A DNA stretch of 50,062 nt from Methanothermococcus sp. SCGC AD-155-E23 (GCA_019561615.1 JAHEQA010000017.1:23849-73910), one strand, 5' to 3'. Shown: positions 12,160-19,193, counted from the first letter of the stretch. Numbers and translations are program-made. Notes: a model not told the origin generated them from the letters alone.

Positions 12160-13662
12160 ATGGAGTTACACATAGACGAGAAGAAACTTCTGAAGATATT
12201 CCAAGATAGTGGAAAGGAGGAAATGTCTGTAGAGGAGTTAGCTAAGCATGAGCTTATGAAGTCTGAGACAAAGGTTATGAGAAGTGCCCTATGGCTCTCA
12301 GGTAAGGGGTTGGTAAATATTGTAGAGAGAAAGAGGAAATATGCTAAACTAAGTGAGAGGGGGGAAAAGGCTCTAAAGGAGGGGCTTCCTGAGAGAAAGA
12401 TAGCAGAGTACCTGAAGGAGAGAGGTACTACCTCCATACCTGTAAGGGATTTAAGGAATATCCTGGATAGCTCCGAGATAAACCCTGCACTTGGACATCT
12501 AAAGAGAAAGGGTATTGCCAAGATTGAAAAAGGGGTTGTGCACTTCAAAAATCTAGATTATAGAGATAGGGAGGAAGAGGTACTTAGGGATATTAAGATA
12601 GATGGGGATGTAGAGAAATACCCACCTGAGATCCTGGAGATACTTAAAAAGAGGGGGCTTATTGAAATAGAGGAGATAACAGAGAGATCTATCAGATTAA
12701 GTGAGAAGGGGAAGGAGTACATAAAGAAGCCTATAGAGATAAGGGAGGAGATCTCCCAGTTAACTAGGGAGGATATTATCACAGGTAGGTGGAAAAGATG
12801 TTATATTAGACCCTACGATGTAGCTGTCCCTACAGAGGAGGTCTATCCTGCAAAATACCACCCCCTTACAAGGGTGATATACCAGGTTAGAGAGGTACTA
12901 ATAGGTATGGGATTCAAGGAGGTTAAGAGTCCAATGGTAGAGACAGAATTCTGGAATTTCGATGTACTCTTTGAACCCCAGGATCACCCTGCCAGGGATA
13001 TGCAGGATACCTTCTTCCTAAGGTATCCCAGAAGTGGAGAGGTGCCTGAGGAACTTCTAAGGAAAGTTAAAGAGGTGCATGAGAGAGGTACTGTAGATGG
13101 AAGGAAGATATCCAAGGGATGGAATTATAAGTTCCAAGAGGAGATATCTAGAAGGACTATTTTAAGAACCCACACCACGGTATCCTCTATTAGATACCTG
13201 GCATCCCTATCCCCAGAAGAGAGGGAGAAACCCCACAAGGTATTCTGTATAGACAGGGTGTTTAGGAACGAGGCCATAGATTACAAACATCTCCCTGAAT
13301 TCTATCAGTGTGACGGTATAGTTATGGACAGGGATGTTAACTTTGACAACCTTATAGGGATACTGGTGGAGTTTTTAAGGAGGTTAGGTTTTGAGAGGGT
13401 TAGGGTAAGACCTGCATACTTCCCCTTTACAGAACCTTCCCTGGAGGCTGAGGTCTATCTAGAGGGTAAGGGCTGGCTTGAGATCCTGGGGGCAGGTATA
13501 TTTAGACCTGAAGTCCTTGAACCCCTAGGTATAGATAAACCTGTGTTGGCCTGGGGTATTGGATTAAGTAGATTAGCTATGCTTAAACTGGGATTGAAGG
13601 ATATAAGGGAGTTACATAGAAACGACTTGAAGTGGTTAAAGAAGGTAAGGTATGTGCCTTAA
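12160..13662 (+). CDS. pheS: Phenylalanine-tRNA ligase alpha subunit
   Basis: PheS forms the alpha2beta2 enzyme that charges tRNA-Phe. The 500-residue product has the archaeal layout: N-terminal winged-helix domains (residues 1-200), then the class II catalytic core from about 225. Motifs include [20 protein letters not shown], the motif 2 region [26 protein letters not shown], and motif 3 [18 protein letters not shown] with [13 protein letters not shown]. The pheT gene is not in the window, as is common in methanogens, where the two subunits are unlinked. cbiF begins 12 bases after the stop. Confidence 0.96.
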
Positions 13663-13674
13663 AGGTTGTTAGAT

Positions 13675-14431
13675 ATGAAGGGTAAGGTATTAATAGTAGG
13701 TGCAGGACCTGGAGATCCTCAGTTAATTACTTTAAAGGGAAAGAAGGCCATAGAGGAGGCAGATATTATTGTATATGCAGGCTCCCTTGTAAATAGAGAG
13801 ATCCTAAAATACAACAGGAGGAATGCCAAGGTATACAACAGTGCAACTATGGATCTGGAGGAGATAGTTAAGGTAATGGTGGAAGGGGTAAAAAGAGGTT
13901 TAAATGTGGTAAGACTACACAGTGGAGATCCCTCCATCTACGGTGCAATCAAGGAGCAGATAGATGAATTGAAGAAACATGGTATAGATGTGGAGATAAT
14001 ACCAGGGGTGACATCTCTCTCTGCCAAGTTCTTTGAAGGTGGAGTTAACACTTCCAAAGGTATCCCAAACTGTTATAATTACCAGGCCTGAGGGAAGGAC
14101 ACCAAAACCTAAGGGAGAGAGTATAAGGGAGTTATCTAGGCATGGTTCTACCATGGCTATATTTTTAGGTGTAGGGATGATAGAGAAGGTTGTATCTGAT
14201 TTAATAGAGGGTGGATATAGAAGAGATACCCCAGTTGCAGTTGTCTATAAGGCCTCCTGGGAGGATGAGAAAATAGTTAAGGGAACCTTGGAAGATATAG
14301 TTCCCAAGGTTAAAGAGGCTAACATTAAGAGAAGTGCTCTGATAATAGTGGGGGATGATCCCAGAGATTATGAGTATTCAAAACTCTACGATAAGAACTT
14401 TGAAACAGGTTATAGGAAGAGAAAAGAGTGA
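13675..14431 (+). pseudogene. cbiF: Cobalt-precorrin-4 C11-methyltransferase, frameshifted
   Basis: CbiF methylates C11 of cobalt-precorrin-4 with S-adenosylmethionine in anaerobic cobamide synthesis. The first frame (GKVLIVGAGPGDPQLITLKG, VRLHSGDPSIYGAI, IPGVTSLSAKF) is typical to about residue 122, then runs into an unrelated tail and stops near 14091. The next frame carries the rest: LKVELTLPKVSQTVIITRPE, GRTPKPKGE, STMAIFLGVGM, and VVYKASWEDE to a stop at 14431. The switch is at TTCTTTGAAGG near 14028-14034. One extra T, or a deletion of about five bases, would explain it, since the joined loop is about two residues shorter than I expect. The start is the ATG at 13675. Confidence 0.88.
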
Positions 14432-14435
14432 TTTT

Positions 14436-15464
14436 TTACCACTTCATGAAGAGTTTCTTCCTACTTCTCTCTATAGCTCCTTCTGCTGCCCTCCCTCCAA
14501 TTAAGGTTCTAAGTTCTTCTACAATAGCCTGAGAGTCCACCAGGGTTGTGGGGTTTATCTTAGCCTTTTTAACCTTCTCCCAGATCTCTGGATCTATATT
14601 CTGTAACTTCTCCAGTGCAGTTTCCAGTAACTCCTGATCATCTGTAAGTTTTAGAAGGGAGGCGTTCTTAACAAGGAGCTCCATATTAACAGCCTTTAGG
14701 AAGCCGTGAATACCTGAGGTTCTAATAATAGCTGCCATCACCTGAAGTGCCATGATGATCTCTCGTTCAACAGTCTCCTCGGGAAATCCTATAACTTTTG
14801 TACCAACATTGTAATACTCCAGTATACTTGCCAGTGCCATAGCCATTACTGCAGCAGACCCCATATTCCCTAGGGGACATATCATACCCATGGGTACTAC
14901 ATAGGCCTTTTTATTAACACTTTCCGCCAATTCAATACACTTCTTCAACTGTTCCTCTGTTAAGTATCTCTTTCCATCTAGGGATGTACTCCCTATAATA
15001 TAGTGGTCATGTTGAGGTGTGCCTGGAAATACGGTAGGATGCATAGAGGAGAAACCAATGTCCCTCCTATCCATGAGTTTAGATAGTACATGGGAGTAGA
15101 CAACAACGGGACACATAGTACAGGTGGTGAGTATTACTGCATCCTTTGGTAGATGATCTACAATCTTTTTTGCAATCTCTATAGTTTCAAGTGGAGGAGT
15201 GTATAGTATGTGCATCTCCCCATGTCTTGCTGCCTCTAGATCATCCTGGGTAACCTTGACTCCTGCCTCCTCCACCTTCTTCCACATCTCCTCTGTTAGC
15301 ATATTCCCGTTAGGCTCTGAGAGTACTACATCGTGACCTGCTTCTGCAAATTCCATGGCCATTCTACTACCGCCATAGGGCGGTTCCCCTCCAAAGAGTT
15401 CAGGTACTCTAAGTTTGTTGATATAGAGATCCTGGTTACCTGCACCGTAGATGGAAATTTTCAT
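14436..15464 (-). CDS. Hmd paralog (HmdII-type), copy 1
   Basis: The 342-residue protein is a paralog of [Fe]-hydrogenase, H2-forming methylene-H4MPT dehydrogenase. The Rossmann start is GAGNQDLYINKLRVPELF; the iron-ligand Cys is kept in TTCTMCPVVVYS and the His of the active-site loop in SSMHPTVFPGTPQHDH. At the position of the catalytic His14 of true Hmd there is Tyr14. HmdII proteins bind the FeGP cofactor but are reported to lack ordinary Hmd activity; a regulatory or scaffold role, including contact with tRNA synthetases, has been proposed. AGGTGAT precedes the ATG. It ends 4 bases from the convergent cbiF stop. Confidence 0.88.
   Translation of the reverse strand: MKISIYGAGNQDLYINKLRVPELFGGEPPYGGSRMAMEFAEAGHDVVLSEPNGNMLTEEMWKKVEEAGVKVTQDDLEAARHGEMHILYTPPLETIEIAKKIVDHLPKDAVILTTCTMCPVVVYSHVLSKLMDRRDIGFSSMHPTVFPGTPQHDHYIIGSTSLDGKRYLTEEQLKKCIELAESVNKKAYVVPMGMICPLGNMGSAAVMAMALASILEYYNVGTKVIGFPEETVEREIIMALQVMAAIIRTSGIHGFLKAVNMELLVKNASLLKLTDDQELLETALEKLQNIDPEIWEKVKKAKINPTTLVDSQAIVEELRTLIGGRAAEGAIERSRKKLFMKW
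14578..14792. repeat. Near-identical tract shared by Hmd copies 1 and 3
   Basis: Positions 14578-14792 match 16909-17123 at 213 of 215 bases (offset 2331). Immediately outside, identity falls sharply on both sides. The encoded segment includes IIMALQVMAAIIRTSGIHGF and the following helices of the C-terminal domain. The abrupt edges inside more divergent genes indicate recent gene conversion. Confidence 0.9.
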
Positions 15465-15554
15465 AAAATCACCTAAAAATTTTTATTTTTTTTAACGATT
15501 TTAGACCAATATGGGTTTATAATCGTCCATTATAGAGAGATTATAGGATCATAG

Positions 15555-15563
15555 TATATAAAA
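15555..15563 (-). promoter_or_regulatory. TATA box for Hmd paralog copy 1
   Basis: On the minus strand TTTTATATA lies in the 167-base gap between copies 2 and 1, about 90 bases before the copy 1 ATG. It predicts a transcript starting near 15530 with a leader of about 65 bases. Copy 1 may thus be transcribed on its own rather than by read-through. Confidence 0.5.
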
Positions 15564-15609
15564 GTCTACTATAACAGGGGAATCAAAAGTCAAGAAAAAT
15601 ATCACCATG

Positions 15610-15619
15610 AAAAAAAAAA
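15610..15619 (-). terminator. T10 tract after Hmd paralog copy 2
   Basis: Ten consecutive T on the minus strand lie 12 bases past the copy 2 stop, after a run of five T. Such T-rich tracts are typical archaeal intrinsic terminators. Together with the TATA element at 15555 this separates copies 2 and 1 transcriptionally. Confidence 0.55.
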
Positions 15620-15631
15620 TAGAGAAAATTT

Positions 15632-16657
15632 TTAACCCATGAAGAGTTTCTTCCTACTTCTCTCTATAATCCCTTCTGCTGCCTTTTCCCCTACAACTCC
15701 CTTTATCTCATTTACCAGCGCCTGAGAGTCCACCAGAGTTGTGGGATTTATCTTAGCCTTTTTAGCTTTTTCTACAAATTTTTCATCGATGTTATTTAGT
15801 ATGTCCAAGGCTACTTTTAATCCCCTCTGATCTTCTGAGAGATTCATAGAGGAGGCACTCTTTGTAACTAACTCTACATTTAGAGCCTTTAAGAGGCCGT
15901 AAACTCCAGAGGTCGCCACCAGGGAAGCCAAGGTCTGAAGTGCCATAACTATCTGCTGCTCTACCATCTTCTTAGGAGCACCTATAATCCTTCTACCCAC
16001 CTTGTAGTACTCTAAAATACCTGCAAGTGCTATGGCAGTTGTAAGTACTCCCATATCGGAGACTGCAGATACTACATCTATAGGCACTACATAGGCCTTT
16101 TTATTAACACTTTCTATCAGTTCAATACACTTCTTCAACTGCTCCTCTGTTAGATAGTCCTTTCCGTCAAGAGAGGTACCTCCTATTATGTAGTGATCAT
16201 GCTGAGGTGTACCTGGGACTGCAGCGGGATGTAGTGAGGAGATACCTATATCCTTCCTCTCTCTTAACTCGTACTTGAGACAGGAGTAGAGGACAATAGG
16301 TGAAATAGTACAGGTGGTTAGTAAGACCGCATCCCTTGGTACATAGGGGATTATTCTTTTGGCAATATCTATGGTGTAGCATCCGAAGGGTGTAAATAAG
16401 ATGTGCATCTCCCCATGTCTTGCTGCCTCTATGTCGTTGTTAGTTACCTTAACCCCTGCTTTCTCAACTTTATCCCACATCTCCTCTGTTAACATGTTTC
16501 TATCAGGCTCGGCAAGTACTACATCATGCCCTGCTTCCGCAAACTCTATAGCCATCCTACTTCCACCATAGGGCGGTTCCCCTCCAAAGAGTTCAGGAAG
16601 TTTAAGTTTGTTTACATAGAGGTGCTGATTCCCTGCACCGTAGATGGAAACTTTCAT
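15632..16657 (-). CDS. Hmd paralog (HmdII-type), copy 2
   Basis: This is the most divergent of the three copies (341 residues from the ATG at 16657). It has GAGNQHLYVNKLKLPELF at the nucleotide-binding start, the Cys in LTTCTISPIVLYSC, and SSLHPAAVPGTPQHDH. Tyr again replaces the catalytic His14. Unlike copies 1 and 3, which read MGMICPLGNMG or close to it, it has IDVVSAVSDMG, so it lacks one Cys shared by the others and may differ in function. AGGTGA lies six bases before the chosen ATG; a GTG three codons upstream overlaps that site and is rejected. A T10 terminator follows it. Confidence 0.88.
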   Translation of the reverse strand: MKVSIYGAGNQHLYVNKLKLPELFGGEPPYGGSRMAIEFAEAGHDVVLAEPDRNMLTEEMWDKVEKAGVKVTNNDIEAARHGEMHILFTPFGCYTIDIAKRIIPYVPRDAVLLTTCTISPIVLYSCLKYELRERKDIGISSLHPAAVPGTPQHDHYIIGGTSLDGKDYLTEEQLKKCIELIESVNKKAYVVPIDVVSAVSDMGVLTTAIALAGILEYYKVGRRIIGAPKKMVEQQIVMALQTLASLVATSGVYGLLKALNVELVTKSASSMNLSEDQRGLKVALDILNNIDEKFVEKAKKAKINPTTLVDSQALVNEIKGVVGEKAAEGIIERSRKKLFMG

Positions 16658-16689
16658 GCCTTTCACCTGAAGTATAAGTAAACTGGTCT

Positions 16690-16763
16690 TACTGCTCCTC
16701 TGTTAGATAGTCCTTTCTGTCAAGAGAGGTACCTCCTATCACCTAGGGATTATAGTGAGGAGA
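16690..16763 (-). pseudogene. Relic of a further Hmd paralog copy
   Basis: The gap between copies 3 and 2 contains a piece of Hmd coding DNA. Positions 16691-16739 match copy 2 at 16138-16186 with a single difference in 49 bases. A second short match (AGTGAGGAGATAC near 16754) corresponds to copy 2 at about 16233. The 46-base stretch of copy 2 between the two matches is reduced to about 14 bases, so this is a deleted remnant with no open frame. It implies a fourth copy or a duplicated fragment during expansion of the array. Confidence 0.8.
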
Positions 16764-16769
16764 TACTTT

Positions 16770-17795
16770 TTAACCCATAAAGAGTTTTTTCATGCTCCTT
16801 TCAATCATTCCCTCTGCTGCCTTTCCTCCAACCATGTTCTTAAGTTCCTTTACAAGTTCCTGGGAATCTACAAGTGTCGTTAGATTTATCTTAGCTTTTT
16901 GAGCTTTTTCCCAGATCTCTGGATCTATATTCTGTAACTTCTCCAGTGCAGTTTCCAGTAACTCCTGATCATCTGTAAGTTTTAGAAGGGAGGCGTTCTT
17001 AACAAGGAGCTCCATATTAACAGCCTTTAGGAAGCCGTGAATACCTGAGGTTCTAATAATAGCTGCCATTACCTGAAGTGCCATGATGATCTCTCGTTCA
17101 ACAGTTTCCTCGGGAAATCCTATCATCTTTCTACCTACTTTATAGCTCTCTAAAATCCCTGCAAGTGCTATGGCCATTACTGCGGCAGATTCCATATTTC
17201 CAAGAGGACATATTATGCCGATAGGCACTACATAGGCCTTCTTGTTAACACTCTCTGCTAACTCAATACACTTCTTCAACTGCTCCTCAGTTAGGTAGTC
17301 CTTTCCGTCAAGGGACTTCCCTCCTATGATGTAGCGGTCATGTTGGGGGGTGCCTGGAAATGCTACGGGATGGAAGGATGAGATACCAATATCCTTCCTC
17401 TCCCTTAACTCGTACTTGAGATGGTGGTAAGGTACCACTGGACATATGGTACAGGTAGTTAGGAGCACTGCATCCTTAGGTAGGTGTCTTACTATCTTCT
17501 TAGCTACCTCTAGGGTTTTAATTGTAGGGGTGTAGAGGATGTGTATCTCTCCATGTCTTGCAGCCTCTAGATCATCCTGGGTAATCTTAACTCCAGCCTC
17601 CTCCACCTTCTTCCACATCTCCTCTGTTAACATGTTTCTATCCGGTTCAGCAAGTACTACATCATGCCCCGCCTCTGCAAATTCCATGGCCATTCTACTA
17701 CCACCGTATGGTGGCTCCCCTCCGAAGAGCTCTGGTACTTTAAATTTGTTTATGTAGGTATCCTGGTTACCTGCTCCGTATACTGAGACTTTCAT
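16770..17795 (-). CDS. Hmd paralog (HmdII-type), copy 3
   Basis: The product is 341 residues from the ATG at 17795, with AGGTGA six bases upstream. It has GAGNQDTYINKFKVPELF, the iron-ligand Cys in LTTCTICPVVPYHHL, SSFHPVAFPGTPQHDR (last His changed to Arg), and IGIICPLGNMESAAVMA. Tyr14 stands where Hmd has His14. The C-terminal part is almost identical in DNA to copy 1 over 215 bases, while the rest resembles copy 2 as much as copy 1, so the gene is a mosaic. It is the first gene of the array, downstream of TATA-like elements at 17901-17920. Confidence 0.88.
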   Translation of the reverse strand: MKVSVYGAGNQDTYINKFKVPELFGGEPPYGGSRMAMEFAEAGHDVVLAEPDRNMLTEEMWKKVEEAGVKITQDDLEAARHGEIHILYTPTIKTLEVAKKIVRHLPKDAVLLTTCTICPVVPYHHLKYELRERKDIGISSFHPVAFPGTPQHDRYIIGGKSLDGKDYLTEEQLKKCIELAESVNKKAYVVPIGIICPLGNMESAAVMAIALAGILESYKVGRKMIGFPEETVEREIIMALQVMAAIIRTSGIHGFLKAVNMELLVKNASLLKLTDDQELLETALEKLQNIDPEIWEKAQKAKINLTTLVDSQELVKELKNMVGGKAAEGMIERSMKKLFMG

Positions 17796-17900
17796 GCCTT
17801 TCACCTCAAGGTTTTAAATAATAAATTCTTCTAAGTATCTGGAGTATCGCTGATAATAATAAAATTTATCTAGTTAATCATAAAATATCTATTTGAACTC

Positions 17901-17920
17901 TTATAAAATCTTTTATAAAC
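17901..17920 (-). promoter_or_regulatory. TATA-like elements before Hmd copy 3
   Basis: On the minus strand GTTTATAAAAG and TTTTATAAG lie side by side about 105-125 bases before the copy 3 ATG. One of them probably binds TBP. The gap also holds a plus-strand stretch (EDVLVYERWKEVLREFL before a stop at 18001) that looks coding-like but has no credible start. Confidence 0.45.
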
Positions 17921-17996: not shown

Positions 17997-19193
17997 TTAT
18001 AATTTAAATTCCCCTTTTTCTATCCTCTTTTTAAGCTCCCTACATAGTCTCATAGCCCTCTCTCTATCTGACTGTCTACAGGTTATAGGTATCCCTAGAA
18101 TACTGTTTAACCTTATAGAGTACACCCCATGAGGACAGGTATCTGCACAGACTCCACATCCAAAACAGTCCTCTGTTGGTAGTGGCCTATTTCCCAGATG
18201 AGGCATCCTCTTAATAGCCTTAGTGGGACACATCTCCATAGCAGTACATACCTTACAGTTTCTACACCTCTGAATATCTATACTGGGCCTTAACTCTGCG
18301 CCCCTCCATACCTGAGCGTAATCACCCACCCCTATAATTTTTCTCCCCACCACGTTTACAAGGGGTAGGGGTATGTCCTCATCTAAGGTCTTTAGAAACT
18401 CTTTATTTCTCTCCTCAACCTCCACAGGTATTGCAAGGGTGTTAAATACCTCCACACCTCCAGAGGTGATAAAACCCCCTAAGTAATAGGAATCCATGTT
18501 GTGCATATCTGCAGATACCATGAGATTCTCCTTTCCCCTTGAACTCCTGGTTCCATACCCTAGTATAACCCCCTCTGCACCGTTCAACAACACCCTCTTT
18601 CCAATGAGACTCCCTTCATCGCAGTACATATTCTGAAGAGGGTTTAACTCCCCACAGCCTGAGAAGGAGGCCTCTCCCCTCCTCATCCTCCTCCTGTGAA
18701 ATATGGTCTCTACAGGTTCCTCCCCTAAGTTTGTAAAGGCGAGGTAATTTTTAAATGCCATCCTAGTCCCTATCATCCTGGCAGTGGGAATGTCATCCAA
18801 GGTTACACTCCTCCTGTAAGTTCTTCCCCCACTCTCCACCAGGACCTCTACCTCCTTACCTGCAACAAGGTCTTTAAATAGGAATCCCCCTCCGTAATCT
18901 TCCACGTAACTTGTCCCGTACACCATCACATCTACAGATCCCAGATACTCATTTGGACAGGGACCTATATATCCCTCTATACCATTTAGATATACCCTCT
19001 CTCCCCTTCTAAAGTTACCAGGCTCAGCTATAGGTATATGGAATACTGCCATGGTACCTGACATTATTCCACAGGTGGCAGTTGTAACAACATCTATCTC
19101 CTCTATCTTATCCTCCTCGTTATTTCTTATCATCTTCTTTAACTTATCAACAGTTACCACCACCTTTTCCTCAGGTGTTCTAGAATTCTCCAT
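17997..19193 (-). CDS. Methanogenesis marker 16-type metalloprotein (DUF39 plus ferredoxin domain)
   Basis: The 398-residue protein joins a DUF39 domain to a C-terminal 2[4Fe-4S] ferredoxin domain. DUF39 includes TTATCGIMSGTMAVFHIPIA and AEGVILGYGTRSSRGKEN. The ferredoxin domain has CRNCKVCTAMEMCP and CFGCGVCADTCPHG near residues 310-355. This is the architecture of methanogenesis marker protein 16. Related DUF39 proteins with a ferredoxin partner act in homocysteine synthesis from aspartate semialdehyde and sulfide in methanogens, so a sulfur-transfer role is plausible. AGGTGT precedes the ATG. Only 46 bases separate it from the divergent radB. Confidence 0.82.
   Translation of the reverse strand: MENSRTPEEKVVVTVDKLKKMIRNNEEDKIEEIDVVTTATCGIMSGTMAVFHIPIAEPGNFRRGERVYLNGIEGYIGPCPNEYLGSVDVMVYGTSYVEDYGGGFLFKDLVAGKEVEVLVESGGRTYRRSVTLDDIPTARMIGTRMAFKNYLAFTNLGEEPVETIFHRRRMRRGEASFSGCGELNPLQNMYCDEGSLIGKRVLLNGAEGVILGYGTRSSRGKENLMVSADMHNMDSYYLGGFITSGGVEVFNTLAIPVEVEERNKEFLKTLDEDIPLPLVNVVGRKIIGVGDYAQVWRGAELRPSIDIQRCRNCKVCTAMEMCPTKAIKRMPHLGNRPLPTEDCFGCGVCADTCPHGVYSIRLNSILGIPITCRQSDRERAMRLCRELKKRIEKGEFKL

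Follow-up and report, generated by a model that had tools for sequence, protein, structure and literature searches.

HmdII, a protein related to the [Fe]-hydrogenase Hmd, was described around 2000. In Methanocaldococcus jannaschii or Methanothermobacter, HmdII is reported to bind the iron–guanylylpyridinol (FeGP) cofactor and to lack hydrogenase activity (PMC2739858, PMC3087415), and methanogen HmdII and HmdIII are reported not to reduce methenyl-tetrahydromethanopterin (methenyl-H4MPT) (PMC3087415). According to PMC7460606, Fujishiro et al. ruled out a scaffold role of HmdII and put forward a methylene-H4MPT sensor. Residues that Goldman et al. predicted to be functional include Hmd Lys151 and Asp251 as well as Asp206 of the M. 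jannaschii protein MJ1338 (PMC2739858). Here we analyze three complete hmdII open reading frames (ORFs) lying head to tail on the minus strand, at 14436–17795, of a 50,062-nucleotide stretch (hereafter the window) from Methanothermococcus sp. SCGC AD-155-E23 (E23; GCA_019561615.1, JAHEQA010000017.1:23849-73910). Copies 1 (14436–15464), 2 (15632–16657) and 3 (16770–17795) belong over their full length to the same family as MJ1338 (PDB 4yt2/4yt4) and the second M. jannaschii paralog MJ0715 (4yte), sharing with them Tyr14, the iron-ligand cysteine and the loop histidine (residues of all hmdII copies are numbered as in copy 2, counted from its ATG). The M. jannaschii proteins, however, form no tandem array, lack a Cys-x-x-Cys (CxxC) motif and Cys197 and keep Asp201, whereas copies 1 and 3 are the opposite in every one of these respects. 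Methanothermobacter offers a second parallel, an independent HmdII duplication (HmdII/HmdIII) with Tyr14, the FeGP-binding site and no reported hydrogenase activity, but there the two genes are unlinked and the residues that set copies 1 and 3 apart are absent.

All three window copies score far above the cut-off of the curated HmdII model TIGR01724 over their full length (462.6, 531.6 and 461.6 bits for copies 1–3; cut-off 167.2) and fail the equivalog cut-off of the true Hmd model TIGR01723 (75–96 bits; cut-off 341.45), so that the original prediction of three intact HmdII-type genes in tandem is borne out. Their best PDB match is MJ1338 (E = 5e-146 for copy 2 and 2e-130 for copy 1). E23's own true Hmd (contig C46; compare PDB 2b0j) shares the fold family and equivalents of Cys176 and His201, but carries His14 and is only ~25–27% identical to the window copies. 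In a single alignment, Tyr14, Cys116, His143 and Asp201 of copy 2 fall opposite His14, Cys176, His201 and Asp251 of this Hmd; Tyr14, the iron ligand Cys116 and the loop His143 are present in all three copies, and His14 in none. The retained cysteine and histidine, and the tyrosine at the catalytic position, were thus correctly called from the outset. Tyr14 fails as a distinguishing mark of the triplet, since it occurs throughout the family: in 69 of 69 HmdII proteins checked (52 of 52 with that column plus 17 of 17 further ones from Methanobacteria), against His in 18 of 18 true Hmd proteins. Likewise, the proposal that cofactor binding was kept while H2 activation was lost is a long-standing view of HmdII generally (PMC2739858, PMC3087415) and says nothing special about the triplet. 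By homology, the window copies would bind the FeGP cofactor but lack the catalytic base His14. The FeGP-making genes hcgA and hcgG are found in the E23 genome alongside true Hmd.

One unusual feature is the presence of two HmdII forms. In a maximum-likelihood tree, clade A comprises copy 2, the HmdII of four relatives (G005, G001, G004, G002) and one copy from the sister cell Methanothermococcus sp. SCGC AD-155-C09 (C09, also G007), while clade B (support 100/99) comprises copies 1 and 3, the E23 copy linked to mptA, the copy labeled C45a, one copy from the independent metagenome assembly SZUA-1453 (G008) and two copies of a C09 array; the fine branching within clade B is not to be trusted because its genes are mosaics. 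Cys119, Cys197 and Asn201 are found in 7/7 clade B sequences, from three lineages, but in none of the six clade A sequences and none of 27 other HmdII sequences. Gly194 occurs in six of the seven clade B members, whereas all 27 other HmdII proteins have Asp194 and Asp201, with Ser or Pro at position 119. By our own offset count, Asp194 would correspond to the Asp206 of MJ1338 predicted to be functional. Cys119 forms a CxxC with the iron ligand Cys116, a motif seen in none of 17 further HmdII proteins, and every clade B member has an altered Phe91-Gly92 loop, which corresponds to Lys151-Gly152 in Hmd. Copy 1 (342 amino acids) reads Tyr14, Cys116-x-x-Cys119, Gly194, Cys197 and Asn201; copy 3 (341 amino acids from its ATG) is of the same clade, and copy 2 (also 341 from its ATG) has Ser119, Asp194, Ser197 and Asp201. 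When Asp at the Hmd Asp251 site and absence of CxxC are taken to define clade A, copy 2 passes and copies 1 and 3 fail (Asn201, Cys119), a criterion that splits subfamilies and plays no part in the curated model for HmdII, whose cut-off all three exceed. From this distribution over the clades it follows that the cysteines were gained in copies 1 and 3 and none was lost in copy 2; the difference first noticed between the copies (ICPLGNM against VSAVSDM) is real, but its direction, given as a loss in copy 2, is reversed. The alignments identify clade B as a new, genus-restricted, derived HmdII form that gained Cys119 and Cys197 and lost Asp194 and Asp201, and copy 2 as the ordinary HmdII of the genus. 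Comparing the clades separates the parts of the site kept by selection (iron ligand, loop His) from those remodeled (conserved Asp residues, Phe-Gly loop), and the extra cysteines at the iron site in two of the three window copies point to a changed job.

A third, divergent clade (C) was observed in five genomes of the genus (L055:7832-8899, on E23 contig C45; L039; L042; L043; L045). Its members have Asp or Ser at position 116, with a Cys one residue earlier in three and absent there in two, Cys in place of the loop His143 and Gly in place of Asp201, and they retain Tyr14; their way of binding FeGP, if they still do so, may differ from that of other HmdII proteins.

The window copies differ from one another by 19–28% in DNA, and this divergence is unevenly spread. 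In 30-codon windows, copies 1 and 3 are 96–100% identical over codons 226–300 and 63–90% identical elsewhere, a C-terminal near-identity that copy 2 does not share. Mixed oligomers, another suggestion of the original prediction, may form. Copy 1 and C45a are 96–99% identical over codons 31–75, and copy 3, the mptA-linked copy and C45a are 95–99% identical over codons ~76–120. Blocks of 96–100% identity between copies are thus embedded in genes otherwise 60–75% identical, and the longest stretches of agreement across polymorphic sites (90, 29, 23, 20 and 19 sites) were each reached in 0 of 2000 permutations. Such near-identical blocks inside diverged genes therefore indicate gene conversion, copy 3 being a mosaic with copy 1 (codons ~226–300) and with the mptA-linked copy (codons ~76–135). 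Copies 3 and 2 are separated by 103 bp that contain the relic of a further hmdII gene (16691–16766, minus strand), consisting of 70 bp at 88.6% identity to nucleotides 451–520 of copy 2 (blastn E = 2.6e-22) and a second piece matching nucleotides 413–426 at 14 of 14 positions, the stretch in between having been deleted. Pairwise ratios of nonsynonymous to synonymous divergence (dN/dS) are 0.09–0.19 in comparisons of E23, G005 and G008 (~0.09 for copy 2–G005 and for copy 1–G008) and 0.25–0.44 within C09, values that are rough and meaningful only in their low order, as dS is near or above 1 and close to saturation. At that order, the ratios place both HmdII forms under purifying selection. Tandem duplication and local dispersal gave rise to the genes, gene conversion shuffles them, and we hold the evolutionary description as a whole (array, two clades, conversion and relic) with high confidence. 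Cys119, Asn201, the two clades, gene conversion, the relic, three more copies in the genome and the link to mptA all go beyond the original prediction.

E23 is a single-cell genome from the Ginger Castle vent of the Von Damm field, Mid-Cayman Rise (PMC8417812), and a search of the main text of that genome paper gave no mention of Hmd. Its assembly (1,043,924 bases in 51 contigs, ~86% complete) contains true Hmd and six HmdII genes, the triplet making up half of the set. The others are the mptA-linked copy (C17:20886-21908, ~1.9 kb left of the window), a copy cut by a contig end and preceded by a poly-C run (C45:93-1034) and a divergent copy (C45:60837-61859). Contig C40 (L081) ends in a 26-residue HmdII start running into poly-G; this end and the start of C45 (L054) both break inside hmdII at a GGEPPYGG stretch with poly-G/poly-C runs. 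The two are probably parts of one hmdII gene that assembly or amplification split artificially, and the 26-residue start may supply the front that the cut C45 gene lacks. Hmd-family genes number 1 to 7 per genome in 36 genomes of the phylum, E23 ranking highest and C09, with six, second, and 152 genomes searched from the class of Methanothermobacter have at most three matches each. The original statement that Methanococcales carry one or two unlinked HmdII paralogs holds for most of them. Weak HmdII matches of 450–530 amino acids in relatives resemble proteins of the prephenate dehydrogenase type, as judged only from their starts and a published outgroup, and a scan of viral contigs found no HmdII. 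A genus with five or six HmdII copies, in ordinary and cysteine-rich forms, amounts to a natural experiment on HmdII function.

A close counterpart of the triplet is a four-gene tandem hmdII array in C09, in the same genus and likewise combining clade A and clade B copies. Its position differs, since it adjoins mptA and is not enclosed by the cobalamin methylase and marker 16 genes. Its copies 3 and 4 also lack Cys116 (Tyr instead) and His143 (Gln instead), respectively, losses that set them apart from all other clade A and clade B proteins compared. C09 copies 1 and 2 (L038, minus strand, ~13171 and ~11837) have ATA at the ATG start site, right after a GGTGA ribosome-binding site; the ATA is either a rare start codon or a first step of decay. 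Within E23's genus, G011 carries a second hmdII (L080:5425-6573) that nearly matches its ordinary copy in the N-terminal domain, whereas its C-terminal half is swapped for a longer, unrelated-looking sequence. The genome paper also tabulates 43% GC for E23 against 29% for C09, although both cells come from the same vent fluid (PMC8417812); for one genus this is an unusually wide span.

As to function, we give roughly even weight to the reading that the triplet encodes FeGP-holding accessory proteins for storage or regulation, thiol-dependent in clade B. On this reading, a locally amplified HmdII array would supply proteins that hold FeGP and thereby serve Hmd, either as a reservoir of the cofactor or as a regulator, and that may also respond to methylene-H4MPT. 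In clade B, a disulfide or a second thiolate at the iron site (Cys116-x-x-Cys119 plus Cys197) could gate FeGP uptake and release, and the substrate side of the cleft would be altered. A bolder version, in which clade B is a thiol-gated FeGP carrier whose CxxC and Cys197 switch between hold and release while conversion keeps recombining cofactor-binding and dimer-forming segments, seems unlikely to us. Of the roles put forward by the original prediction, storage and sensing had been proposed earlier, as had a scaffold role, which is reported as excluded. Several points weigh against the accessory reading. Deletion work in M. maripaludis, cited by title in PMC7460606, reportedly showed that Hmd works there without hmdII, and some Hmd users have no HmdII at all; for both reasons a reservoir role cannot be essential. 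The loss of iron-site residues in C09 copies 3 and 4 means that strict retention is not general, and the near-saturation of dS blunts the case from selection. Modeling copies 1 and 2 with AlphaFold from alignments of eight rows gave low confidence (predicted local distance difference test, pLDDT, 43.8 and 59.1), so neither a fold search nor distances of Cys119 and Cys197 from the iron were based on these models.

The neighborhood of mptA (TIGR00294, 433 bits), a gene of methanopterin synthesis, provides a testable link to methanopterin metabolism. Of the 11 genomes of the genus in which mptA, always as a single gene, was found, seven have an hmdII gene immediately downstream of it; hmdII does not follow mptA in G009, G011 and G003, and the G010 contig ends within mptA. 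In G005, one hmdII stands between the pheS/cobalamin-methylase genes and mptA. The two halves of this arrangement have parted in E23 and G008, mptA keeping one hmdII and the methylase side keeping the array that ends at marker 16. Such linkage, together with the proposal of Fujishiro et al., favors a sensor or regulator, in which HmdII, with FeGP as its prosthetic group, would read methylene-H4MPT and tune hmd or the metabolism of pterins, several set points being provided by the array. But the mptA–hmdII gaps range from ~160 to >700 bp, so that we claim no co-transcribed operon; HmdII shows no visible DNA-binding part, and in clade B conserved acidic residues are changed on the presumed substrate side. 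We consider a sensor unlikely. In five genomes (G005, G009, G011, G003 and G006) a small GTPase-like gene (~166 amino acids; in G005, L046:6984-7481) lies directly downstream of hmdII; it is missing at the E23 array.

The locus might instead simply be prone to duplication, the extra copies being passengers kept functional-looking by conversion from a working copy. The relic in the spacer fits such neutral amplification, as do the hmdII fragments and the variant copy present in other members of the genus, and so does C09, with its two ATA-start copies, its two copies without Cys116 or His143 and its higher dN/dS. The low dN/dS in E23 and G008, however, and the invariance of Cys119, Cys197 and Asn201 in seven sequences from three lineages speak for constraint, and we judge neutral amplification quite unlikely. 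Still harder to sustain, and in our view improbable, is low hydrogenase activity on a changed substrate, as in the HmdII of the bacterium Desulfurobacterium, which is reportedly a weak hydrogenase working with folate carriers. That protein (6huy) aligns over the full length, has Tyr at position 14 in its alignment and shares the iron-site motif TTCT, and the clade B changes lie on the presumed substrate side; yet it comes from a bacterial host, is more distant (E = 7e-91 to copy 2) and lacks CxxC, while E23 already has true Hmd and methanogen HmdII/HmdIII show no activity toward methenyl-H4MPT (PMC3087415). An assembly or whole-genome-amplification artefact, conceivable for a single-cell amplified genome in which poly-G/poly-C contig ends cut one hmdII gene, has a negligible chance of explaining the triplet and was ruled out, as the window copies diverge by roughly a fifth or more of their DNA, the flanks are syntenic in G008, with an hmdII end at each of the two flanks (L040, L085), and C09 has its own four-gene array.

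The longest ORFs of the triplet span 14436–15464, 15632–16666 and 16770–17804; the ATG-based ends of copies 2 and 3 are 16657 and 17795. With the ATG after GGTGA taken as the start, the tyrosine is residue 14. For copy 3, the ATG at 17795 is a better start than the GTG of the longest ORF (17804), because GAGGTGA precedes the ATG and the upstream GTG overlaps that ribosome-binding site. TATA-like boxes, as consensus matches only, lie 124 nucleotides before the copy 3 ATG (TTTATAAA, 17912–17919, minus strand) and 98 nucleotides before the copy 1 ATG (TTTATATA, 15555–15562, minus strand), whereas the promoter scan gave no clear box upstream of copy 2. Copy 2 may be transcribed by read-through from copy 3, and a T-run just past it may end its transcript.

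The array is flanked by a methanogenesis marker 16 gene of the homocysteine biosynthesis family (HcyBio; 17997–19193, minus strand; TIGR03287, 542 bits; PF01837) and, on the plus strand at 12160–14431, by two genes, one for a pheS-like synthetase and one for a tetrapyrrole methylase of the cobalamin type; these plus-strand neighbors recur in G008, G005 and G010. The methylase gene occupies two overlapping frames beside the triplet (13666–14091 and 14033–14431) and a single open frame in G005 and G008; the split is a frameshift or a sequencing error. A search for shared operators upstream of the hmdII genes found a CTATTGATAG box whose recurrence is confined to the upstream regions of C09 copies 3 and 4, and TATTTAAATA palindromes preceding the hmdII copies that are linked to mptA in E23 and G008.

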